Below, one piece after another: positions 5,528 to 33,585 of a stretch of DNA of 35,507 nucleotides. Where the stretch lies: NCBI GenBank assembly GCA_026627345.1, contig JAPNUP010000133.1:1-35507 (forward strand), written 5' to 3'. The translations under genes were made by a program, and so were the position numbers. This stretch comes from Bacillota bacterium. Lineage in GTDB: Bacteria > Bacillota > Bacilli > Alicyclobacillales > SLC66. A model generated the notes under the pieces. The model ran no database searches. It saw only the letters and a list, made by a program, of their open reading frames with translations, and was not told the origin of the DNA. Positions within the stretch are counted from its first letter, which is position 1; every line of letters begins with the position of its first letter.

Positions 5528-5845
5528 TCACAGTACGCTTGCGAGCTGTGTCTCCAAGTCCTTTTTAGGACGAAAGCCAACGATCTGTTTCACTGCCTGA
5601 CCATTTTGAAATAAGACCAACGTCGGAATACTCATAATCCCAAACTTGGCAGCCGTCTGCGGATTCTCATCGACATCCAACTTAGCCACTGTAATTTTAT
5701 CGCTGTATTGGTTGGCCAGCTCTTCTAATACTGGTGCCATCATCTTACAAGGTCCGCACCAAGTGGCCCAGAAATCCACCAACACGGGCTTATCGCCCTG
5801 CAGTGCTTGAGAAAAATTTGCGTCAGTCACTTTGACAGTTGCCAT
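5528..5845 (-). CDS. trxA: Thioredoxin
   Basis: 105 residues from ATG 5845, with GAGGGG about 10 bases upstream. The open frame extends further upstream, but that stretch overlaps the HesB-like gene and is unlike thioredoxin. It has the canonical active site [18 protein letters not shown], the conserved cis-Pro loop SIPTLVLF and the C-terminal helix, and is full length for the family. It reduces protein disulfides, and also persulfides, in the cytoplasm using thioredoxin reductase. It is the second gene of a two-gene unit behind the HesB-like candidate selenoprotein (50-base gap), close to a persulfide-detoxification operon, which suggests a role in sulfane-sulfur or Fe-S redox chemistry. Confidence 0.97.
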
Positions 5846-5895: not shown

Positions 5896-6183
5896 TCAGC
5901 AATTCCCGGCCAAAGCCGAATGAATCACCAAACGCTTGCCGAACCACGATTTGACATAGTCTACCGTGACGCCCTCCATATAGCGGGCCATTTCTTTAGC
6001 ATACACTAGTTTGAGGCCGTCTACATCCTGCGCTTCATCTTCCACCCTGATGGTCTCATCCAGAGCCATCATATACTGAGGCCCGCCTCACCCGGCTGAC
6101 AAATAGATGCGCAGATACTGACCTGGGTGTTTTGCCAGTACTGTCTGTAGATATTGTTTTCCGGATTCGGTCATTTGAATCAT
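5896..6183 (-). CDS. HesB/IscA-like candidate selenoprotein (in-frame TGA at the conserved Cys)
   Basis: From ATG 6183, with GGAGG 7 bases upstream, the frame reads 95 codons to a TGA at 5898-5896, interrupted by one TGA at 6090-6088 (codon 32). The product starts [12 protein letters not shown], reaches LRIYLSAG, then the TGA, then [11 protein letters not shown], and ends ALAGNC. In A-type Fe-S carriers (IscA/HesB) this position is the first conserved cysteine of the GCGGP..xLALDE motif. A HesB-related selenoprotein family with Sec at exactly this Cys is established. A hairpin fitting a bacterial SECIS follows the TGA. The rest of the frame is intact, so decay is unlikely. Ordinary ORF calling splits and misses it. 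Probable role: Fe-S or redox sulfur chemistry, co-transcribed with trxA. Translation through the TGA depends on selA, selB, selC and selD, which are not in this window. Confidence 0.78.
6048..6071 (-). promoter_or_regulatory. Candidate bacterial SECIS element
   Basis: Minus strand 6071-6048: TGATGG and CTC pair with GAG and CCATCA, with one bulged A (6054), closing a five-base loop TGGAT. The stem begins 16 bases after the in-frame TGA, and the loop G is about 26 bases after it. This lies within the usual distance range (about 16-37) for SelB-recognised elements, which have a small apical loop with G in the first two positions. A second, nearer hairpin (loop GTATA, 11 bases after the TGA) overlaps it and is the alternative. 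Confidence 0.6.
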
Positions 6184-6215
6184 GGCCCCACCTCCAACCT
6201 TCGAAGTACCTTTCT

Positions 6216-6244
6216 TTTATATACCCCGTCAGGTATAAAGTCAA
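6216..6244 (-). promoter_or_regulatory. Promoter of the HesB-like/trxA unit with CsoR/CstR-type operator in the spacer
   Basis: Minus strand TTGACT (6244-6239), 17-base spacer, TATAAA (6221-6216): one mismatch per box. The spacer and box edges carry an inverted repeat (6220-6237) reading TATACC-N6-GGTATA, which resembles ATACCC..GGGTAT operators of the CsoR/CstR/FrmR family. A repressor bound here would block RNA polymerase. The transcript start would be about 30 bases before the HesB-like ATG. Confidence 0.6.
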
Positions 6245-6954: not shown

Positions 6955-8376
6955 TTATACGGTCACCGGTTGGCCAGTGCGCAGCCACTCATCGTAGCCG
7001 CCTAACATATTCTGAACATCCATGATCCCGCCTGCTTGTAAGATGCTCGCCGCAATTGCAGAACGCGCACCTGAACGACAATGGACGAGAATCGTCTTGT
7101 CCCTTGGTAATTCTCCGAGTCGATTCGCGAGGGTACCGAGCAATACACGGTGCGCCTGCGCAATGTGACCTTCAGACCACTCTACAGAGTTGCGAACGTC
7201 GAGCACAAAAACATCGCCATCTTCGATCGCTTTGGCGGCTTGCTCAGGACGCACCTCCGCATAAGTGTGCACACGCACATCTGCTTCTGGCAACTTCGCG
7301 ACCACACTTGGACTCATGGTGGAGACCAATTGGTCGAGGCCAATCGACTGCAAGTCGTGAACGACCGCACTCACCTGATCTTCCTCACACAACACGTAGA
7401 TCGGTCGATCATAGGCCAGCAACCAGCCAGCCCACGTCGGGAACGACTTGTTTAGCGGTATGTTGATCACGCGTGCAAAATGTCCTTTGGCAAAGACGCT
7501 TGCAGGCCGTGTATCGACTACGACACCTGTCTTTAGCCATTCTTGCAACGTCGCAATCGATTCAGTCTCACGCTGCGGCCCTTTGACTTCAGACAGCAGA
7601 GTCGGACCCTCTTTGTTCAACTTCTTCATCATGGCAAAGTACGTTGGCGGCTCTGCTTGCCCGGTGATCAACGTCTCTACGAACCGTTCTTCATCATCTT
7701 CATTCAATGCCCAGTTAACCATTTTCTCATATCCAACCGTGGAAGACGGTATCGCCCCCAGTGACTTGCCGCAAGCACTACCTGCTCCATGAGCCGGCCA
7801 CAGTTGCAGTGAATCAGGAAGCTGTTTGAAGCGTTGCAGCGATTTGAACATACGATGTGCCATGTCCTTTGTCGAACCCGAAACACCGGCGGCTTTTTCC
7901 AGCAGATCAGGTCGACCGATGTCCCCGACAAAGACAAAGTCACCAGAGAAGATTCCCATCGGCAGCGGCGCGTTGGAGCCTCCATCTGTCACGATAAAGG
8001 AAATATGCTCCGGCGTATGTCCTGGCGTGTGCATCACTTCAAAACGAATATTGCCAACGGAAAATTTAGTGCCATCATACACAGGAACGTGCTTGTAGCC
8101 GTCCACATATTGATACGACCAATCCGGGCCGCCTTCGTCTGACAAATACAGCGTGGCATCAGCGGTTGCCGCGAGTTCCCGTGAACCTGACAGAAAATCG
8201 GCATGGATGTGTGTCTCTGTGACAGCTGTGATCTTGACCCCTTCAGCTTTAGCCGCTTGTAGATACATGGACACGTCTCGCGACGGATCAATCACAATCG
8301 CTTCGCCGCACTTCTGACAACCTACGAGATAAGACGCATGCGCTAGCTTTTCATCATAAAAATACTTGAGTAGCAT
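6955..8376 (-). CDS. cstB: CstB-like persulfide dioxygenase-rhodanese fusion
   Basis: 473 residues. The second ATG (8376) is preferred because GGAG lies 8 bases before it and only 2 bases before the first ATG (8382). Domain order: metallo-beta-lactamase persulfide dioxygenase (residues 1-245; TETHIHADFLSG, HTPGHTPEH, GDFVFVGDIGRPDL, PAHGAGSACG), a degenerate rhodanese domain (about 275-360) lacking a catalytic loop, and an active rhodanese domain (about 375-473) with HCRSGAR (Cys433). This three-part layout is that of Staphylococcus CstB, which converts low-molecular-weight persulfides to thiosulfate or sulfite. Last gene of the tauE-sqr-DUF1641-cstB unit. Its TAA lies in the target duplication of a MITE-like insertion. 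Confidence 0.92.
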   Translation of the reverse strand: MLLKYFYDEKLAHASYLVGCQKCGEAIVIDPSRDVSMYLQAAKAEGVKITAVTETHIHADFLSGSRELAATADATLYLSDEGGPDWSYQYVDGYKHVPVYDGTKFSVGNIRFEVMHTPGHTPEHISFIVTDGGSNAPLPMGIFSGDFVFVGDIGRPDLLEKAAGVSGSTKDMAHRMFKSLQRFKQLPDSLQLWPAHGAGSACGKSLGAIPSSTVGYEKMVNWALNEDDEERFVETLITGQAEPPTYFAMMKKLNKEGPTLLSEVKGPQRETESIATLQEWLKTGVVVDTRPASVFAKGHFARVINIPLNKSFPTWAGWLLAYDRPIYVLCEEDQVSAVVHDLQSIGLDQLVSTMSPSVVAKLPEADVRVHTYAEVRPEQAAKAIEDGDVFVLDVRNSVEWSEGHIAQAHRVLLGTLANRLGELPRDKTILVHCRSGARSAIAASILQAGGIMDVQNMLGGYDEWLRTGQPVTV

Positions 8377-8401
8377 GGCCATCGCTCCTTTAAAATGTGA
8401 T

Positions 8402-9154
8402 TTACTGACGTGCCGAACGCTCTTGCAGAATCGTCAGGACAGCTTTCAACATATGGACTGCCTGTTGCATTTGCGGCTCTTTCAAAAGTTTTGTGAGCGC
8501 AAATACATTGACAGGTGTTCGATCACCTTGGGCCCTGACTTTTGCTTCCTGCCAGAGCGAGCGTGCATCCCCGATCTTCTCAACGACAGGTTCTGTCCAT
8601 TCACGCGCTCCATCGCTCAGGTACGCGAGTGACTCCTTGTCAGCAAGTACAGCCTGCGCCATATCAAGCAGCGTCTCTGCCATGCCGACATAGCCGACGA
8701 GTTTCGGTAGTTTGCCGATCAAGACCACTCCGGCATCCAGTGTCTCCCGATTAAGCGCCACACTGGGCAGTTCCTGCTTGAACCCGTCAATCAGATTCGT
8801 GAGTGATTCTTTATCGGACATGACGGATTCTACCATATCGATCAGATTTTCCAGCAGTGCTGCGTACTTGACGAGCTTCGGCAGTTTGCCGAGCAGTGTC
8901 GCTGCAGCTTCGATGGTTTCGCGATTCAACTCGACTGTCGGCAGTTGCTCTTGAACGCCTTTCATCAAAGAGGCCATCGAGGCCTTATCCTGCAATACAG
9001 TCGTTGCAAACTCAGTCACACGCGATATCGCTGCATACTGTTCCATTAATTTCGGCAAATTCTCGAGCGCTGCAACCAGGCTATCTTGTACTTCGGGGCG
9101 AGCGAGAACGGCCGACAGCGCATCGCGGTTGTTCTCTACAGTCGATTCCGCCAT
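8402..9154 (-). CDS. DUF1641 protein with internal repeats
   Basis: 250 residues from ATG 9154 with AAAGGGGCGG upstream. It is soluble and largely helical. An approximately 65-residue unit is repeated: ELNRETIEAAATLLGKLPKLVKYAALLENL and ALNRETLDAGVVLIGKLPKLVGYVGMAETL, each followed by a DKESL-type helix, with a more diverged copy at the N-terminus. DUF1641 proteins occur next to sulfide:quinone oxidoreductases and some formate dehydrogenases, and their biochemical role is not known. Here it sits 16 bases after sqr and 25 bases before cstB, so it is almost certainly co-transcribed. A scaffold or quinone-pool coupling role is only a guess. Confidence 0.85.
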   Translation of the reverse strand: MAESTVENNRDALSAVLARPEVQDSLVAALENLPKLMEQYAAISRVTEFATTVLQDKASMASLMKGVQEQLPTVELNRETIEAAATLLGKLPKLVKYAALLENLIDMVESVMSDKESLTNLIDGFKQELPSVALNRETLDAGVVLIGKLPKLVGYVGMAETLLDMAQAVLADKESLAYLSDGAREWTEPVVEKIGDARSLWQEAKVRAQGDRTPVNVFALTKLLKEPQMQQAVHMLKAVLTILQERSARQ

Positions 9155-9170
9155 AGTTAGGCCGCCCCTT

Positions 9171-10358
9171 TCACATCAAGCCTTTAAGCATGCCATCCCA
9201 GTAGATGACAGGTAGAAGTTCCTTTTTCAGCAGATACATACTAAAACGTTCTTTCCCTTGATCAAACGGGAAGGTTTCATCCGGCTCGTTGTTATAGTCA
9301 AACTCTGCTAGCACCAAGCTCCCGTATCCTGTAACGAGCGGACAAGAGGTGTATCCGTCATACTGCGCTACCGCAGGCTTGTTACGCAGCAAGTTGAGCA
9401 GGTTTTGCGCGACGACAGGCGCCTGCTTGCGAATCGCAGCCCCTGTTTTGGACGTCGGCAACGAGCTCGAGTCACCTGCTCCAAAGACATTCGCATACTT
9501 GGTGTGTTGCAGGGTAAACTTATCGACTGATACCCAACCATCTTGGTTAGCCAGTGGACTCTTCTTGATGAAGTCCGGCGCACTCATCGGCGGCGTGACG
9601 TGGATCATATCGAAGTGAACAGTTGAACGTTCCTTGCTGTCGACATTCTCAAACACAGCTTCATGCTTCTCGCCGTCGATCTCGACCAAGCTGTGCTTGA
9701 AATGCGTTTCGATCCCTTTGCGAGCGATCACTTGCGATAGCGAATCCGCATACTTCTTGACCGCGAAGATCGAAGGCGTGGCACTGTAAAAGTGCACCTG
9801 CGTGCGATTGCGAACACCGGAACGCCGGAAATGATCATCAGCGAGGTACATGATCTTCTGCGGCGCACCGCCACACTTGATCGGGTTCACCGGTTGGGTG
9901 AAGATCGCCGTCCCGCCTTTGAAATTACGGATATTGTCCCAGGTAGAAGACACGTACTGATACGAGTAATTGCTGCAGACGCCGTTTTTACCGATCGTCT
10001 CAGGCAGACCTTTGACGCGATTCCAATCCACTTGGATACCGGCCGCGACGACGAGATAGTCATACTCTATCGTCTGTCCTTGCTCGGTCATCACCTGATT
10101 CACATCAGGCGCGAACTCCTTGACCGCCTCTTGAATCCATACAGCTCCGTCAGGGATGACAGATGCTTCGTCGCGTTCTGTGACTTCCTTCTGCGCTGCG
10201 CCACCGCCGACTAGTGTCCAGAGGGGCTGATAATAGTGTTTCGAGGAGGGATCAATAATGGCCACTTGACCTGATAACGCTTTCGCTTCCCGCAATAACC
10301 TTGCCGCAATGCTGATTCCTGCAGTTCCGCCACCAACGATCACCACTTGATAATGCAA
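9171..10358 (-). CDS. sqr: Sulfide:quinone oxidoreductase (type II-like)
   Basis: 395 residues from TTG 10358, selected because AGGAAGTG lies 7 bases upstream and the next residues HYQVVIVGGGTAG begin the FAD domain; a GTG-ATG at 10385 is the alternative. An N-terminal FAD-binding GxGxxG, a second dinucleotide region and FGAGDSSSLPTSKTGAA mark the disulfide-reductase fold. Two redox cysteines fit SQR: Cys162 in IKCGGAPQK and Cys339 in YTSCPLVTGY, the latter matching the human/type II motif. The C-terminus is a short amphipathic membrane anchor. It oxidises sulfide to persulfide or polysulfide and reduces quinone at the membrane, feeding the Qox oxidase encoded 3.5 kb away. CstB encoded downstream would use the persulfide product. 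Confidence 0.93.
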   Translation of the reverse strand: MHYQVVIVGGGTAGISIAARLLREAKALSGQVAIIDPSSKHYYQPLWTLVGGGAAQKEVTERDEASVIPDGAVWIQEAVKEFAPDVNQVMTEQGQTIEYDYLVVAAGIQVDWNRVKGLPETIGKNGVCSNYSYQYVSSTWDNIRNFKGGTAIFTQPVNPIKCGGAPQKIMYLADDHFRRSGVRNRTQVHFYSATPSIFAVKKYADSLSQVIARKGIETHFKHSLVEIDGEKHEAVFENVDSKERSTVHFDMIHVTPPMSAPDFIKKSPLANQDGWVSVDKFTLQHTKYANVFGAGDSSSLPTSKTGAAIRKQAPVVAQNLLNLLRNKPAVAQYDGYTSCPLVTGYGSLVLAEFDYNNEPDETFPFDQGKERFSMYLLKKELLPVIYWDGMLKGLM

Positions 10359-10456
10359 GTCAATGCACTTCCTCTCGTCCATCACTTTTAGGTCATAGGC
10401 TTGACAGTGACTGTTAGGTTCGCCCGCTATCTACACGTTACTACACGATACAGGCA

Positions 10457-10486
10457 GATAGAATCAGGGAAAACCCTGATTCTATC
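10457..10486. promoter_or_regulatory. Palindrome A upstream of sqr (CAGGG-N4-CCCTG type)
   Basis: A perfect 13-bp inverted repeat (GATAGAATCAGGG, four-base AAAA centre, then its complement). Its core ATCAGGG-N4-CCCTGAT recurs at 11346-11363. On the minus strand a TAGTAA (10443-10438) lies about 31 bp from the centre, so the palindrome would sit near -41, the classic position for NarL-type activators. No T-tract follows on either strand, which argues against a terminator. NreC, a NarL-family regulator, has a TAGGG-N4-CCCTA-like site. Confidence 0.6.
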
Positions 10487-10490
10487 AAAC

Positions 10491-11294
10491 TCACAGATGC
10501 AACGCTTGGGCATTAAGTACAAGCATGTAAATGGCGACGACAAAGACAACCCCGGAAAAGATATATTGAAGCGCTTTTCGGTGATTGCTCAGTCTAGTCG
10601 CCAGCAAGGTTCCGAACACGCCACCGACGATCCCGCCTATGACGTATTCAAGCACTACCCACCAGTTCACCAGCCCCGACAGGCTATAGTTCACGGCAGT
10701 GGTCAACCCGAATGTGCCGACAGATAGTAGCGAGGAACCGATGGCTGCAATCATCGGCATGCCAGTGGAAAACATGAGCCCCGGCACGATCAAGAACCCG
10801 CCGCCGATGCCGAAGAACCCGGACACTGCGCCAACGACAAAGCCGGTGAAGACTACGCGAAACACGCGAATCTGCGTCTGACCAGATGCCTCTTGAAGTG
10901 CAGTCGCCATTTCTTCCCGCGCACCTTTTTTCGGCCATGACATGCGCACGGCCATGACGATCATCAACAGAGCGAAGAGAAACAAAATCTGTTTGTCAGG
11001 CACGTGTTTGCCGATCTCCGACCCGATATAGGCGCCGACTGCGCCAGGGATAGCAAAAGCGATGGCGGCTTTCCACAGCACGTGTTTTTGCCGCGCGTGT
11101 GGTATCAAATTGATCAGTGCATTGACAGCGACAGCCAGCGCCGTACTTCCTATAACGACATGCGGATCTCGAATGCCGACCACATATAGTAAAAGCGGCA
11201 CCGCGAGAATAGACCCACCACCGCCAAGCAAACCCAGCGAGAAACCAACCAGCCCTCCTGATAGAATAGCCAGAACAATTTGTAATGATGTCAT
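10491..11294 (-). CDS. TauE/SafE-family sulfite or anion permease
   Basis: 267 residues from ATG 11294, with a strong AGGAGGTG upstream. About eight hydrophobic segments with the family's internal duplication: SLGLLGGGGSILAVPLLLY near the N-terminus and SGFFGIGGGFLIVPGLMF in the second half. TauE/SafE proteins move sulfite, sulfoacetate or related organosulfur anions across the cytoplasmic membrane. In cst-type operons a homologue is thought to export sulfite or thiosulfate made by persulfide oxidation. It is the first gene of the unit with sqr, DUF1641 and cstB. A palindrome shared with sqr lies upstream and could be the operator. Confidence 0.9.
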   Translation of the reverse strand: MTSLQIVLAILSGGLVGFSLGLLGGGGSILAVPLLLYVVGIRDPHVVIGSTALAVAVNALINLIPHARQKHVLWKAAIAFAIPGAVGAYIGSEIGKHVPDKQILFLFALLMIVMAVRMSWPKKGAREEMATALQEASGQTQIRVFRVVFTGFVVGAVSGFFGIGGGFLIVPGLMFSTGMPMIAAIGSSLLSVGTFGLTTAVNYSLSGLVNWWVVLEYVIGGIVGGVFGTLLATRLSNHRKALQYIFSGVVFVVAIYMLVLNAQALHL

Positions 11295-11363: not shown

Positions 11364-11426
11364 TAACGAGGCATGATGTTGCCGCATTCCTACATCTACG
11401 CTACAGTAATGCTGGGAGGTCTCAAC

Positions 11427-12500
11427 ATGCCTCGGATACAAAGCGATACGCAGCGACTGCGCGAACTATTCAACCTTCTGAATGATGGTGTCATCGTGAT
11501 GGATAAGAACCGCATCATTGTCTTCATTAATCCAGCCGCCACGCGCATCACTGGATGGGAACTCGACGATGTGATTCCATACTGCACCTACTGTCAAAAT
11601 CGGCGTGTCGTTCAAGGTCAAGAGCGTTGCTTTCTGGCCAGTCAACCGAACCAGAGCTACTTTGAATCAGAACTTCCTACCAAACAAGGCGATGTCGTTC
11701 CAGTAGGAATGAGTCGTACATTTCTGTCTTCCTCGACCGATCCGGAGCGACGCGACATGGTGATTACCATTCGCGATGTCACCATTGAACGTCAAGCCAA
11801 GGAGCTCGCTTTGCGCACTCAGCTTAGCCAAAGAATGCTCGAGGCACAAGAAGAGGAGCGCAAACGACTCTCCCAAGAACTGCACGACGGCATCTCCCAA
11901 ACGCTTTACGGCATCAGCTTGCGACTCGATCATGTCATGAGTCAAGCGCCTAGGCAACTCGCTTTTTTGCAAGAGATTCAAAGGCAAGTGCAATTGTGCG
12001 CGCATGAAGTCCGTACCATGTCGCGCTCCTTATACCCGGCAGTTTTGTATGACATCGGCTTGACGGCGGCCATTCGCACCCTGATCGAGCAGTTGACCAC
12101 ACCTGAACGCGTGATCGATTTTCATGTGGATACCACGCGCGAACCGCAAGAACGCAGTACGGCTGCAGCGCACGTGTACAGAATTGTTCAAGAAGCCCTT
12201 CACAACGCTATCCTTCACGGACGAGCCACTCACATTCACATCTCGCTGGTTTGTCATCAGGACTGCGAAGTGAGCATTGCCGATAATGGGCGAGGATTTC
12301 ATCCGCCCGCGCTTGCAGACACGGACGGTTACGGACTTCGCAACATGAATGAGCGTGCGCGCGCTTTAGAAGGCACGCTTTTGATTCAGTCCGCTCCGCT
12401 TGCAGGCACACAAGTTACCGTACGTTTCCCTTGCGCGGTCTTACTTGAAACGCCCTTACAGAGCGCTTACGCCAAAAAGGGATGGTGGAGCTATGAGTGA
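11427..12500 (+). CDS. nreB: NreB-like PAS sensor histidine kinase
   Basis: 357 residues from ATG 11427 (GGGAGG 7 bases upstream; the longer frame lacks such a site). A cytoplasmic PAS domain (about 10-125) holds Cys53-x2-Cys56-x11-Cys68, then Ala71 where a fourth Cys would complete the C-x2-C-x11-C-x2-C cluster motif of oxygen-sensing NreB. Then a coiled linker, a HisKA_3 box RLSQELHDGISQTL with His153 as the phosphorylation site, and an HATPase with EALHNAILHG, DNGRGF and GYGLRNMNERA. No membrane segments. The 3' end overlaps the response regulator by 8 bases, so the two are translationally coupled. The missing fourth Cys leaves the nature of the signal (oxygen, nitric oxide or sulfur species) open. 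Confidence 0.85.
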   Translation: MPRIQSDTQRLRELFNLLNDGVIVMDKNRIIVFINPAATRITGWELDDVIPYCTYCQNRRVVQGQERCFLASQPNQSYFESELPTKQGDVVPVGMSRTFLSSSTDPERRDMVITIRDVTIERQAKELALRTQLSQRMLEAQEEERKRLSQELHDGISQTLYGISLRLDHVMSQAPRQLAFLQEIQRQVQLCAHEVRTMSRSLYPAVLYDIGLTAAIRTLIEQLTTPERVIDFHVDTTREPQERSTAAAHVYRIVQEALHNAILHGRATHIHISLVCHQDCEVSIADNGRGFHPPALADTDGYGLRNMNERARALEGTLLIQSAPLAGTQVTVRFPCAVLLETPLQSAYAKKGWWSYE

Positions 12501-13149
12501 GATTCGCGTGTTAATCGTCGATGACCACGTACTTGTCAGGCAAGGATTGCGCCTGTTGTTAGATGAGATGCCCGGGATTCGCGTAGTGGGTGAAGGGTCT
12601 TCAGGAGATGACGCGGTACTGCTGGCACAGCGGTTACAGCCGGATGCCGTGCTACTCGACGTCCATATGCCCAAAGGGTTGGACGGCATCACCGCTGCTC
12701 GTCACATCCGTGGAACATGCCCACAGATACGCGTCATCATGCTGACGATGTTTGACGACGATGTGCACGTGGAAAAAATGCTGTTGGCCGGCGTGTCCGG
12801 TGTCCTGTTCAAGCACGATGACAGTGCCGAAATCATCGAAGCGATCCGCTCCGGGACACCGAGTCGCCCTTATCTACCGCGGCGCATGTCAGAAGAAAAT
12901 CGAGAGCGACTAGTCGCCCAAGCTGCCCGCCCCGATGAGCCTTCCTTGACGGCCCGGGAGACGGAGGTCCTGATTTATCTCGCCAATGGGTATACCAACA
13001 AAGAGGTCGCTACCAAACTCATGATCAGTGTTAAGACAGTCGAAACTCACCGTGCTAATATAATGAAACGACTACAATTACAGACGCGCTTTGAACTCGT
13101 CGATTACGCGCTGAAAAATGGGTATATGGAGGCGCCAAAATCACACTGA
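12493..13149 (+). CDS. nreC: NarL/FixJ-family response regulator, NreC-like
   Basis: 218 residues from ATG 12493, overlapping the kinase stop. The receiver domain has Asp10, Asp11 and phospho-acceptor Asp56 (LLDVHMPKG), with Thr and Lys of the active site in LTMF and FKHD. The C-terminal LuxR-type helix-turn-helix is LTARETEVLIYLANGYTNKEVATKLMISVKTVETHRANIMKRL. It binds DNA as a dimer when phosphorylated by the kinase. The closest known architecture is NreC. The repeated CAGGG-N4-CCCTG palindromes upstream of tauE and sqr are plausible targets. The gene ends one base from the convergent cstR gene. Confidence 0.88.
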   Translation: MSEIRVLIVDDHVLVRQGLRLLLDEMPGIRVVGEGSSGDDAVLLAQRLQPDAVLLDVHMPKGLDGITAARHIRGTCPQIRVIMLTMFDDDVHVEKMLLAGVSGVLFKHDDSAEIIEAIRSGTPSRPYLPRRMSEENRERLVAQAARPDEPSLTARETEVLIYLANGYTNKEVATKLMISVKTVETHRANIMKRLQLQTRFELVDYALKNGYMEAPKSH

Positions 13150-13150
13150 A

Positions 13151-13411
13151 CTAACGACTTTTCATCAGTAAATCGATCGCTTCTTTAATTACTTGATCGG
13201 CACTTCCGCCACCGGAGACCTCTTCGCGAATACACTGCTCCATGTTCTCGCCGACCGCGTACATAATCACCCGATCGACCGCCGAACGGATGGCCGACAG
13301 TTGCGTAACGACATCCTTGCACGTCTTTCCTTGCTCCATCATCTGCAAGACGCCACGCACTTGACCTTCTACACGCCGCAGACGATTCTTGACCGCATCG
13401 TTATATTCCAT
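13151..13411 (-). CDS. cstR: CstR-type persulfide-sensing repressor (CsoR/FrmR family)
   Basis: 86 residues, all-helical DUF156 fold, from ATG 13411 with AGGAGG upstream. Cys31 (GKTCKDV) and Cys60 (ENMEQCI) are at the same numbers as in Staphylococcus aureus CstR. The copper-binding His of CsoR, three residues before the second Cys, is replaced (ENM-xx-C). That pattern marks persulfide sensors, in which the two thiols form a di-, tri- or tetrasulfide and release DNA. The expected targets are the nearby sqr and cstB genes. The only good CsoR-type operator seen in the window is in the HesB-like/trxA promoter. Its own promoter carries a different palindrome. Confidence 0.9.
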   Translation of the reverse strand: MEYNDAVKNRLRRVEGQVRGVLQMMEQGKTCKDVVTQLSAIRSAVDRVIMYAVGENMEQCIREEVSGGGSADQVIKEAIDLLMKSR

Positions 13412-27661: not shown

Positions 27662-28714
27662 TCATCTCCTACGCGAAAAGTAATTGGGTTTGACCACCAC
27701 ATTGTCATAATCGCGGTGAAACACGTGAGTCGTCGCCGGGGACATCGGCGCGATGAGCCAACTCCAATCGCCTGTGAGTTCTCGTCCGGCATCGCGTTCG
27801 AGTTCCTCAAAATAGGCAAACTGTTTGGCTGCGGTATGGTGGTCTACGATCGTAACACCGTGCGCCTTAAACGAGTGCAAGACCGCAATATTGAGCTCGA
27901 GTAACGCACGGTCTTTCCAAAGGGTTGTATCTGAGTGCATCGGCAGTCCAAGTAAGTGGGCGACCTGAGGCAATAGGTTGTAGCGCTTGGTATCCGCAAG
28001 GTTGCGAGCGCCGATCTCCGTCCCCGTATACCAGCCGTTAAAAGGGGCCGTGGGAAACCGTAGCCCGCCGATCTCAAGCTCCATATCGGAAACGATGGGC
28101 ACTGCGTACCATTTGAGACCGAGCCTATCTAACTGCGGCAAGGTAGGATGGTGAATGTCGATCTCCAGCAAGAGTGACGCGGGAATCGGAAACCAGTGCG
28201 TCCCTTGCCGCTCTACCTCGACGACGATCGGCAGCACGTCAAACGGGGTACCAGCACCTTGCCATCCCAAGGCTTGGCAGGTGCGTGTAAAAGCGAGGGA
28301 TATCGGATCGCCGACAATCCCGTCAGGTGTTTCATATCCGGCGTAGCGGATCAGTTGGTCATTCCAAATCCGTACATGTGAGCTAAATACGGTGATAGCA
28401 GGCCGAATAGCTCCGTTATTGGTAGCAAAGTAGATGTGCCTCTGCAGAGCAGATAACACCTGAGAGACTGTCTGTACCCCTCGCGCATCAAACACGGTAA
28501 GCGAGCGCCAAAACAGTCGGCCGATACAACGATTGCTGTTGCGCCAAGCCATTCTGGCACCGTGCGCGAGCTCTTCACCTGTCAACTCGTAAGTTCCATA
28601 ACGGTGTATGCTTTCCTTGATCACAGCGAGTCGGTCATGCATCTCTTCGGCATTCTTGCCGAGCTCATGGTACGCCGTTGCGATGAACTCACACGCCTCA
28701 TCATACAGGAGCAT
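27662..28714 (-). CDS. nos: Bacterial nitric oxide synthase oxygenase
   Basis: 350 residues from ATG 28714, preceded by GGGGAGG at 8 bases; the frame extends eight codons further. Haem-thiolate ligand Cys63 in GARMAWRNSNRCIGRLFW, substrate-binding region PFNGWYTGTEIGARNLADTKRYNLL with the arginine-binding Glu, and the pterin/dimer region GDWSWLIAPMSPATTHVFHRDY. Full length for bacterial NOS, which lacks the reductase domain and borrows electrons from cellular flavodoxin or ferredoxin reductases. It oxidises arginine to citrulline and nitric oxide, and in Bacillota protects against oxidative stress and can tune respiration. It stands between the PLP-enzyme operon and an unknown gene. Confidence 0.96.
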   Translation of the reverse strand: MLLYDEACEFIATAYHELGKNAEEMHDRLAVIKESIHRYGTYELTGEELAHGARMAWRNSNRCIGRLFWRSLTVFDARGVQTVSQVLSALQRHIYFATNNGAIRPAITVFSSHVRIWNDQLIRYAGYETPDGIVGDPISLAFTRTCQALGWQGAGTPFDVLPIVVEVERQGTHWFPIPASLLLEIDIHHPTLPQLDRLGLKWYAVPIVSDMELEIGGLRFPTAPFNGWYTGTEIGARNLADTKRYNLLPQVAHLLGLPMHSDTTLWKDRALLELNIAVLHSFKAHGVTIVDHHTAAKQFAYFEELERDAGRELTGDWSWLIAPMSPATTHVFHRDYDNVVVKPNYFSRRR

Positions 28715-28849
28715 CACGCAACCCTCCCCCACACGCACTCGCTTTCTCAGGAAGTATATGCCTCAGTGCTTGGCTGCCTGTTAGTCGCGGGGAGAGAAAT
28801 GAATCAGTCGGGTGGCGAAATTTCGGCTGCTCCGGCGCTCCATCACGCT

Positions 28850-31943: not shown

Positions 31944-33146
31944 CTACGCAGGCAAACAGGCGATCTGGGTCAGTCCGACCCGTAATACATTCATGGCACC
32001 TACGGTATCTGCATTGGCGTGATAATCACATTTTGTACAGATGAAGTCTGCTTGTGAACTGCGATTCTCTTTACTGATATGTCCACACGTGGGCATTGGA
32101 CAAGTTTGGCTTGTATAAGCCACGGGTACTGTCTTTAGATACCCGCCTCGCCAAGCGAGTTTGTACGTTAAAAGCGTCTGAAACATGGACCACCCTTGGT
32201 CAAGGATGGCTTTATCGAGACCGCTTTTGGCACGCACCCTTTTTCCCGGATTCTCTTTGGTACCCTTCGCCGATCTGCTCATATTCTTGACATGGAGATC
32301 CTCCACAAACACCATCGCGTGGTTTTTGCTAATGATTGTCGAGGTTTTATGCAAGAAATCCAAACGAGCATTGGCAATATGCGCATGTAGCCGCTGAATG
32401 TTAGCGACTTGCTTGCGCCAGTTTTTTGAGAACTTCTTCATGCGGGAAAGTTTTCGCATTTCCCAAGCTACTTGAGTTTCATATCGACGAAACCAGCCTG
32501 GTGCATCGACAAAGGTTTCATCGGAAAGCGCCAAGAAATGAACGATGCCACGGTCGATTCCAACCTGTGATGTTGATGGATGCACAATTGGATCAGGGAT
32601 TTCAACTTCGGTTTGAAACGAACCGTACCAGTGACTCGCGTGCCATGTCACCGTCGCATTCCGCAGATCTCCGTCAATCGCTCGTGACTGGCGAAACTTC
32701 ACCCATCCGATTTTTGGCAAGAATACTTTCGGCAGAACTTTTCGGCCTTCTTGATCTTGTGTGGCCAGGTCGAATTTGATTTGTTTCGAATCTGGGTAGC
32801 GCATACCCGCTTCGTCTCGGTTCTTTTTCTTGAACGTCGGAAAACGCGCCGGATGTTTTGGATCGAACGTAACCTTGATGGACTGCATGAGAAACTTGAG
32901 CGTCCATTGTAAGGGATGCTCAGGCGCTTTACTCAAAAAGGCGTATTCTTCGCTATGCCGCCATAGTGTCAGCAGTTTCGCTAAATCCCCATAGGATAAC
33001 AAAGGAGATCCGGCTTCTAACCGTCCCTTTTGCAGAGCCAATGCCTTATTCCAGACAAAGCGCATACACCCACGATAACGCGAGAGTTGGCGAGCTTGCT
33101 CTTCCGTTGGTTCTAAGCGATAGCGAAACGCTTTGAGTATTTTCAT
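31944..33146 (-). CDS. tnpB: TnpB RNA-guided nuclease/IS605 accessory protein
   Basis: 400 residues from ATG 33146 (MKILKAFRYRLEPTEEQARQ, the usual TnpB start); upstream frame extension into tnpA is unsupported. The RuvC triad appears complete: Asp198 (VGIDRGIVHFLAL), Glu282 (VFVEDLHVKNMS) and Asp380 (NADTVGAMN). The zinc finger CPMPTCGHISKENRS..FICTKCDYHA lies at 349-373. TnpB is the ancestor-like relative of Cas12 and cuts DNA using a guide RNA made from the element's right end. The stop codon lies in the right-end hairpin, the place where the guide RNA scaffold is encoded. It appears intact and possibly active. Confidence 0.93.
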   Translation of the reverse strand: MKILKAFRYRLEPTEEQARQLSRYRGCMRFVWNKALALQKGRLEAGSPLLSYGDLAKLLTLWRHSEEYAFLSKAPEHPLQWTLKFLMQSIKVTFDPKHPARFPTFKKKNRDEAGMRYPDSKQIKFDLATQDQEGRKVLPKVFLPKIGWVKFRQSRAIDGDLRNATVTWHASHWYGSFQTEVEIPDPIVHPSTSQVGIDRGIVHFLALSDETFVDAPGWFRRYETQVAWEMRKLSRMKKFSKNWRKQVANIQRLHAHIANARLDFLHKTSTIISKNHAMVFVEDLHVKNMSRSAKGTKENPGKRVRAKSGLDKAILDQGWSMFQTLLTYKLAWRGGYLKTVPVAYTSQTCPMPTCGHISKENRSSQADFICTKCDYHANADTVGAMNVLRVGLTQIACLPA

Positions 33147-33168
33147 ACTTCTATGATACACTTGGTCT

Positions 33169-33585
33169 ATGAAACAGTCAATCGATATTAGAACGGGTCG
33201 CCACTGTGTATTCAATCTTCATGTTCATTTGGTCTTTATAACAAAATACAGGCGCAATGTGTTTACCAACGCCATTTTAGAGGACATGCATTCTATTTTT
33301 GAAGCCGTCTGTAAAGACTTTGAAGCAGAACTGATTGAATTTGACGGCGAAGATGATCACGTCCATCTGTTGGTCCATTATCCACCCAAGGTTTCAATTT
33401 CTAGTCTGGTAAACAGCTTGAAAGGGGTCTCCAGTCGTCTCATTCGACAAAAGAAGTATCCTGAAATTCAGCAAAAACTATGGAATGGTCACCTGTGGTC
33501 TCCCAGTTACTTTGCAGGTAGTTGTGGTGGGGCACCGCTATCGATGATTCGACAGTATATTGAAAGCCAAAGAACACCTGAGTGA
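33169..33585 (+). CDS. tnpA: IS200/IS605 transposase TnpA (Y1 HUH)
   Basis: 138 residues from ATG 33169. HUH motif His64-Val-His66 in GEDDHVHLLVHYPP and the single catalytic Tyr130 in SMIRQYIESQ, with the conserved LWNGHLWSPSYFAGSCGG. Full length for the family. It excises and inserts the element as single-stranded DNA through its hairpins. Start is 22 bases from that of the divergent tnpB. Confidence 0.94.
   Translation: MKQSIDIRTGRHCVFNLHVHLVFITKYRRNVFTNAILEDMHSIFEAVCKDFEAELIEFDGEDDHVHLLVHYPPKVSISSLVNSLKGVSSRLIRQKKYPEIQQKLWNGHLWSPSYFAGSCGGAPLSMIRQYIESQRTPE

Follow-up and report, generated by a model that had tools for sequence, protein, structure and literature searches.

The HesB-like gene and its product

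The window (the whole stretch of DNA analyzed, 35,507 nt) belongs to a genome of 2.76 Mb in 186 contigs that was judged 99% complete. It carries a small hesB-like gene whose frame contains one TGA codon, followed 50 nt downstream by a thioredoxin gene. The features of this locus are as follows.

5528..5845, minus strand: thioredoxin gene trxA, active-site motif WCGPC (TIGR01068, 137 bits, over cut-off; PF00085)
5896..6183, minus strand: hesB-like gene, predicted to encode a selenoprotein of 95 residues with Sec32 and Cys95 (translation with TGA as Sec; PF01521; 11 orthologues in the order)
6048..6071, minus strand: candidate bacterial SECIS hairpin with loop UGGAU (25 nt from UGA to loop; fold of -11.8 kcal/mol; compensatory changes)
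6088..6090, minus strand: in-frame TGA, codon 32, read as Sec (same codon TGA in 11 genomes and TGT in one; presence tracks SelB)
6189..6195, minus strand: ribosome binding site GGAGGTG, 5 nt ahead of the ATG
6216..6244, minus strand: promoter-like TTGACT-17 nt-TATAAA, read from the sequence
6221..6236, minus strand: predicted CsoR/CstR-type operator ATACCTGACGGGGTAT in the promoter spacer (exact ATACC-N6-GGTAT palindrome; one of 7 exact sites in the genome)

A preliminary description of this DNA had proposed a hidden selenoprotein gene in a 95-codon frame broken by a single TGA. Translation confirmed this frame, which runs from 6183 to 5896 (95 codons plus the stop) and has the TGA at 6090-6088 as its sole internal stop. 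Coding had been said to stay intact past the TGA, and indeed the read-through protein matches the Pfam family Fe-S_biosyn (PF01521) with an E-value of 2.1e-9, above the gathering score, and the frame is kept in the orthologues. A search with the family profile hit A-type carriers of solved structure (1nwb, 2apn, and 1x0g). When aligned to 1nwb, the family has Sec in the column of the first conserved Cys, as had been proposed, and Cys95 in the C-terminal Cys region. The residues around Sec32 read AGUGGP, giving the motif UGGP, i.e., U-x-G-P. The three-Cys ligand set (C...CGC) of canonical A-type Fe-S carriers is not found in the protein, which has Sec32 and Cys95 alone. A single-sequence AlphaFold model had a mean pLDDT of 48, too low for the model to be of use.

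The ribosome binding site and promoter had both been called perfect. GGAGGTG and the two promoter elements are present, but "perfect" is too strong for the promoter, as a scan for strict sigma-70 consensus promoters listed none at this gene. It should be noted that standard gene calling would overlook this gene or call it too short.

Conservation in the Alicyclobacillales and selenocysteine decoding

We compared 59 Alicyclobacillales genomes, including the window's own. In 11 of them, again including the window's own, we found an orthologue interrupted by a single TGA, whose codon position is identical throughout, and a twelfth orthologue (locus L030 of genome G024) has TGT at this codon. The other TGA orthologues share 37-56% of their residues with the window protein. 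The frame is conserved at 39-57% protein identity, and Sec/Cys32, G34, P35, W80, and C95 are invariant among the 12 orthologues. Alicyclobacillus tolerans carries one of them (L053) and was the sole find when genome contigs were scanned with the single window protein; a search of plasmids returned solely Fe-S carrier homologues with 32-35% identity. Of note, in genome G027, which already has one such gene, a further HesB-like frame is interrupted by one TGA (C10:25707-25958, 37% identity).

The presence of the TGA form follows that of the decoding machinery. SelB was detected in 28 of the 59 genomes, all 11 TGA genomes among them, and tRNA-Sec was also detected in 11/11 of the latter. No TGA-form orthologue was found in the 31 SelB-less genomes of the order (Fisher p=7.7e-5 for TGA form versus SelB presence, uncorrected for relatedness or shared descent). 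A search for selA, selB, selC (tRNA-Sec), and selD in the window's genome had been recommended, and all four are present. SelA scored 587.9 bits, SelB 388.8 bits (cut-off 242), and SelD 333 bits, the last with one in-frame TGA; the genome scan gave one tRNA-Sec above the Rfam cut-off, which ARAGORN also calls, with anticodon TCA. The best FdhA match in the genome has no in-frame TGA, so that the candidate Sec users number at least two, SelD and the HesB-like protein.

The TGA of selD (contig C152 of G000, L077:3571-4941, minus strand) lies inside SCAGUAAK near the N terminus, where SelD proteins have their catalytic Sec/Cys. Judging from its sequence, the selenophosphate synthetase of this genome is thus likely a selenoprotein itself.

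Since a standard-code gene finder sees just a stop at codon 32 of the hesB-like gene, the frame could be regarded as a pseudogene, or as a gene ending at the TGA and producing a 31-residue peptide. The preliminary description had named the absence of selB and selC, or random stop codons and frameshifts in relatives, as signs of a pseudogene. This did not turn out to be the case: SelB and tRNA-Sec were both found, not only here but in all TGA genomes of the order, and coding after the TGA is kept in all 12 orthologues, whose frames are intact, 11 having TGA and one TGT at this codon. The TGA is not a chance event, given that 10 further orthologues have it at the same codon and an eleventh has TGT. 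We therefore rejected the pseudogene, and we find it, like the short peptide, hardly credible. The gene almost certainly encodes a genuine HesB-like selenoprotein, in which UGA codon 32 is predicted to be decoded as Sec via SelB, tRNA-Sec, and an intragenic SECIS hairpin; the selenoprotein interpretation first given to this gene is strongly supported.

The genome with the TGT orthologue (G024, L030/L072) had no SelB match, yet it has a tRNA-Sec match and has kept the hairpin region. As far as can be judged from sequence, its state looks like a recent Sec-to-Cys change with a loss of Sec decoding. The same kind of Cys relic was shown for the HesB-like protein of Desulfitobacterium hafniense (PMC1794560).

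A candidate SECIS hairpin

The 12 orthologue sequences align without gaps over 60 nt around the Sec codon. The loop of the hairpin is UGGAU, replaced by UGGAG or UGGAC in three orthologues. In the window, the 30-nt hairpin segment folds at -11.8 kcal/mol, and only 0.75% of 2000 synonymous variants were equally stable. For the other orthologues, this share ranged from 0.5% to 31%; single-sequence tests of the hairpin are thus merely suggestive. Across the alignment, the seven named pairs of the stem form in 88% of the cells versus 35-51% when the pairs are slid by 1-3 columns. Double-sided (compensatory) changes were counted in eight alignment cells, a number reached in 0/500 shuffles. These changes affect two pairs, one going from AU to GC and the other from UA to CG, and may represent few events, because they mostly split one group of relatives from another.

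Bacterial SECIS elements have been described as having a loop of 3-9 nt, a stem of 4-16 bp, a G in loop positions 1-2, a spacing of 16-37 nt, and a folding energy of at most -7.5 kcal/mol (PMC13188914). The hairpin of the window agrees with these limits, with its 5-nt loop, G at position 2, 25-nt spacing, and -11.8 kcal/mol. A gathering-level Rfam scan gave no SECIS match, and a search with Rfam SECIS_1 (RF00031) gave none here and none in control genomes either, so that its negative result carries no information. Another stem, UGAGG/CCUCA, sits right on the TGA; because the window shares it with just one relative, we did not consider it the SECIS element.

Relationship to known HesB-like selenoproteins

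The preliminary description had referred to an established HesB-related selenoprotein family, and this is correct. HesB-like selenoproteins with the motif UxGP are a listed group (PMC13188914) that has been known since at least the surveys of 2005-2006 (PMC1088965, PMC1794560). For the member in the archaeon Methanococcus maripaludis, 75Se labelling has been reported (PMC11097638). The same 2024 paper describes the function of HesB-like selenoproteins as not clear, with a Methanococcus mutant showing no nitrogen-fixation defect. The window gene adds a member to this known family, and what is new is its regulation.

Like the family members represented by TIGR01911 (HesB_rel_seleno) and NF038090 (IscA_HesB_Se), the window protein belongs to the A-type carrier fold family, with Sec in U-x-G-P and the C-terminal Cys that is usual for them; it differs from the known HesB-like selenoproteins by its ties to a persulfide-type operator and, at this locus, to thioredoxin. 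However, it scored below the curated cut-offs of both models (43.9-44.3 versus 85 bits for one and 19.5 versus 66.35 bits for the other). These cut-offs look strict, because the clostridial UGGP proteins tested do not reach them either. We therefore assign the protein, by its sequence, to the broad UxGP group and to neither curated NCBIfam subfamily. With the A-type Fe-S carriers IscA, SufA, and ErpA, it shares the fold family and the position of the first Cys, but it has Sec in place of this Cys and one C-terminal Cys instead of CGC.

A profile built from the 12 orthologues was run on a sample of 398 Bacillota genomes and found matches in 73 of them, most with one TGA; the matches that were inspected by eye have the motif UGGP (or URGP). 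In a tree of 37 rows, a moderately supported branch (88/74) separates the proteins of the order from the clostridial ones sampled. L035C, a long-branched relative with an open frame, also groups with the proteins of the order in this tree. The family profile also has a weak match (E=0.032) to DsrR (2k4z), an A-type carrier-like protein of sulfur oxidizers that is not known to be a selenoprotein.

Operator and genomic context

A Fur/PerR-like gene lies directly upstream of the hesB-like gene. Beyond it are the following genes.

6955..8382, minus strand: metallo-beta-lactamase/rhodanese protein of the persulfide dioxygenase type (PF00753, PF00581)
9171..10385, minus strand: sulfide:quinone reductase-like flavoprotein (NF049943, 249 bits, under its cut-off; PF07992)
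10491..11294, minus strand: TauE/SafE-type exporter (PF01925, 1.8e-51)
11373-13149, plus strand: NreBC-like histidine kinase and LuxR-type response regulator
13151..13411, minus strand: CstR-type CsoR-family repressor with Cys31, Cys60, and Asn in place of the copper-site His

A persulfide-oxidation operon had been claimed beside the gene, and the first three genes bear this out as a sulfide/persulfide operon at 6955-11294. From hesB to the nearest CstR-type gene, at 13151, the distance is about 7 kb, and the kinase and response regulator genes adjoin this repressor gene, as in the sulfide cluster of Bacillus licheniformis. The window resembles the YrkD/NreBC sqr-pdo cluster of that species (PMC9918477) in having CstR-type, NreBC-like, SQR-like, and PDO-like genes. 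So is a TauE-type exporter, sulfite exporters being among the usual CstR targets (PMC10318464). In contrast, the window has a HesB-like selenoprotein, and the passages of PMC9918477 considered mention none for the YrkD/NreBC cluster or for CstR regulons. No link between HesB and CstR, in the biological sense, was found in the literature searched, which was largely non-subscription, so that one may have been published elsewhere.

The CsoR/CstR-type operator noticed in the preliminary description is an exact match, and such a site also precedes the gene in other genera and in a distant family. Seven exact sites were found in the window's genome versus one for the reversed control pattern. Besides the site at hesB, two are on contig C132 beside genes for a CstR-type repressor, a rhodanese, and thioredoxin-like and persulfide-dioxygenase-like proteins, so that this operon and hesB have the same 16-nt palindrome in common; two lie ahead of a thioredoxin-reductase-like flavoprotein gene at C69; and two (C10, C37) are inside or near unrelated genes. 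An exact operator occurs within 85 nt upstream of 5 of the 12 orthologues, where mononucleotide shuffles predict 0.001 orthologues, and two more have a one-mismatch operator within 130 nt. In a distant Bacillota family (f87), a palindrome of the type ATACCC-N4/5-GGGTAT precedes the HesB-like start by about 30 nt at 4/4 loci (L087, L088, L090, and L101); it could belong to a CstR or to a copper CsoR.

A copper response would likewise be conceivable for the window gene if its operator were the site of a copper CsoR: the G-tract palindromes of copper CsoR operators are similar, and the third CsoR-family member of the genome (C87) has the copper-site His. It has also been reported that most CsoR-RcnR proteins recognize G/C-tract pseudo-palindromes (PMC10318464). 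Against this, an exact site lies at the CstR-type gene (C132) and none at the copper-type gene (C87), the neighbors handle sulfur, and the repressors nearby are without the His, which leaves the copper reading only a slim chance. The CsoR-family proteins near the loci of the order have Cys31 and Cys60, and at the position of the copper-CsoR His they carry Asn or Gln, which is the CstR pattern.

Eight of the 12 orthologue loci have CstR-type, rhodanese, TauE, or persulfide-dioxygenase genes no more than a few kb away. The other setting, found at four, is beside a fumarate-hydratase-like gene (a name given from sequence reading) with no operator and no sulfur genes; altogether five orthologues adjoin such a gene, four of them without other sulfur genes. 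One orthologue group without operator has this setting (L031, L032, L034, L072-L074, and L076). The pairing with thioredoxin emphasized in the preliminary description holds at this locus, where trxA is probably on the same transcript as the hesB-like gene. As a general partner thioredoxin is weaker, because in most other genera the place of this trxA is taken by a gene for a rhodanese, a TauE-type exporter, a CstR-type repressor, or a thioredoxin-like protein of a more distant kind. Among the other Bacillota loci sampled, only 2 of 29 had a CsoR-family or thioredoxin-like neighbor within 1.5 kb.

Possible function

Our best reading is that the protein would be a persulfide-induced, thioredoxin-coupled Sec/Cys redox protein. 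The common operator and the neighboring genes suggest that a CstR-type, persulfide-sensing repressor may occupy the predicted operator in the hesB promoter, and that a build-up of sulfane sulfur would release it and induce the gene, presumably in co-transcription with trxA. The selenol of Sec32 could then take up sulfane sulfur, Cys95 might resolve the sulfur bound to Sec32, and the co-transcribed thioredoxin would reduce the Sec32/Cys95 protein. Because two of the three A-type thiolate positions are kept (Sec32 and Cys95), a Sec/Cys redox or persulfide-transfer protein is the most likely outcome. The whole chain, from a SECIS-decoded selenoprotein under CstR control to a Sec/Cys redox or persulfide-transfer function with thioredoxin, is a serious possibility that we would place just short of an even call. 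A wider proposal, that HesB-like selenoproteins of at least two Bacillota lineages are persulfide-induced, thioredoxin- or rhodanese-coupled Sec/Cys enzymes reducing or carrying sulfane sulfur, is more tentative.

The selenoprotein could instead have the A-type role of an Fe-S cluster or iron carrier, induced upon cluster damage by reactive sulfur and using Sec as a cluster ligand. Its membership in PF01521, the alignment of Sec with a cluster-ligand Cys, and the five orthologues beside a fumarate hydratase-like gene are all consistent with this, fumarate hydratases being a class of enzymes that use a [4Fe-4S] cluster. However, with a single Cys in place of the C-terminal CGC, the protein has two of the three ligands. 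In addition, the genome encodes another homologue whose frame is free of internal stops (C128), and the CGC motif is retained by ErpA-type relatives elsewhere in the order. The missing third ligand position speaks against a standard Fe-S carrier but would be compatible with cluster or iron binding; we consider the carrier role unlikely, if far from negligible. It is also conceivable that the selenoprotein has another redox role (e.g., in peroxide, selenium, or metal handling) and that its link to sulfur is one of shared regulation only. This would fit the Fur/PerR-like gene directly upstream and the lack of a sulfur neighbor at most of the other Bacillota loci sampled, but the operator and sulfur neighbors recur across several genera, and such a role seems quite improbable.

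If the sulfur-related redox role is correct, selenium would serve aerobic sulfide/persulfide detoxification. The repeated combination of operator and sulfur genes offers a concrete, testable role and would be a first clue to the job of the HesB-like selenoprotein family; the regulatory link to a CstR-type operator is new and testable, and its functional side is what we infer. The spore-former from which the window derives appears to respire oxygen, judging from cytochrome oxidase genes inside the window. The switch and the neighbors suggest a role in coping with reactive sulfur in this organism. Its genome, which appears to keep Sec for two proteins at least (SelD and the HesB-like one) and has an FdhA free of in-frame TGA, bears on why some aerobes retain selenocysteine.

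Elsewhere in the window, positions 27662-28738 (minus strand) encode a bacterial nitric oxide synthase oxygenase domain (PF02898, 5.7e-154), and an IS200/IS605-type element at 31944-33585 consists of a Y1 transposase gene (plus strand) adjoining a TnpB-like gene (minus strand).
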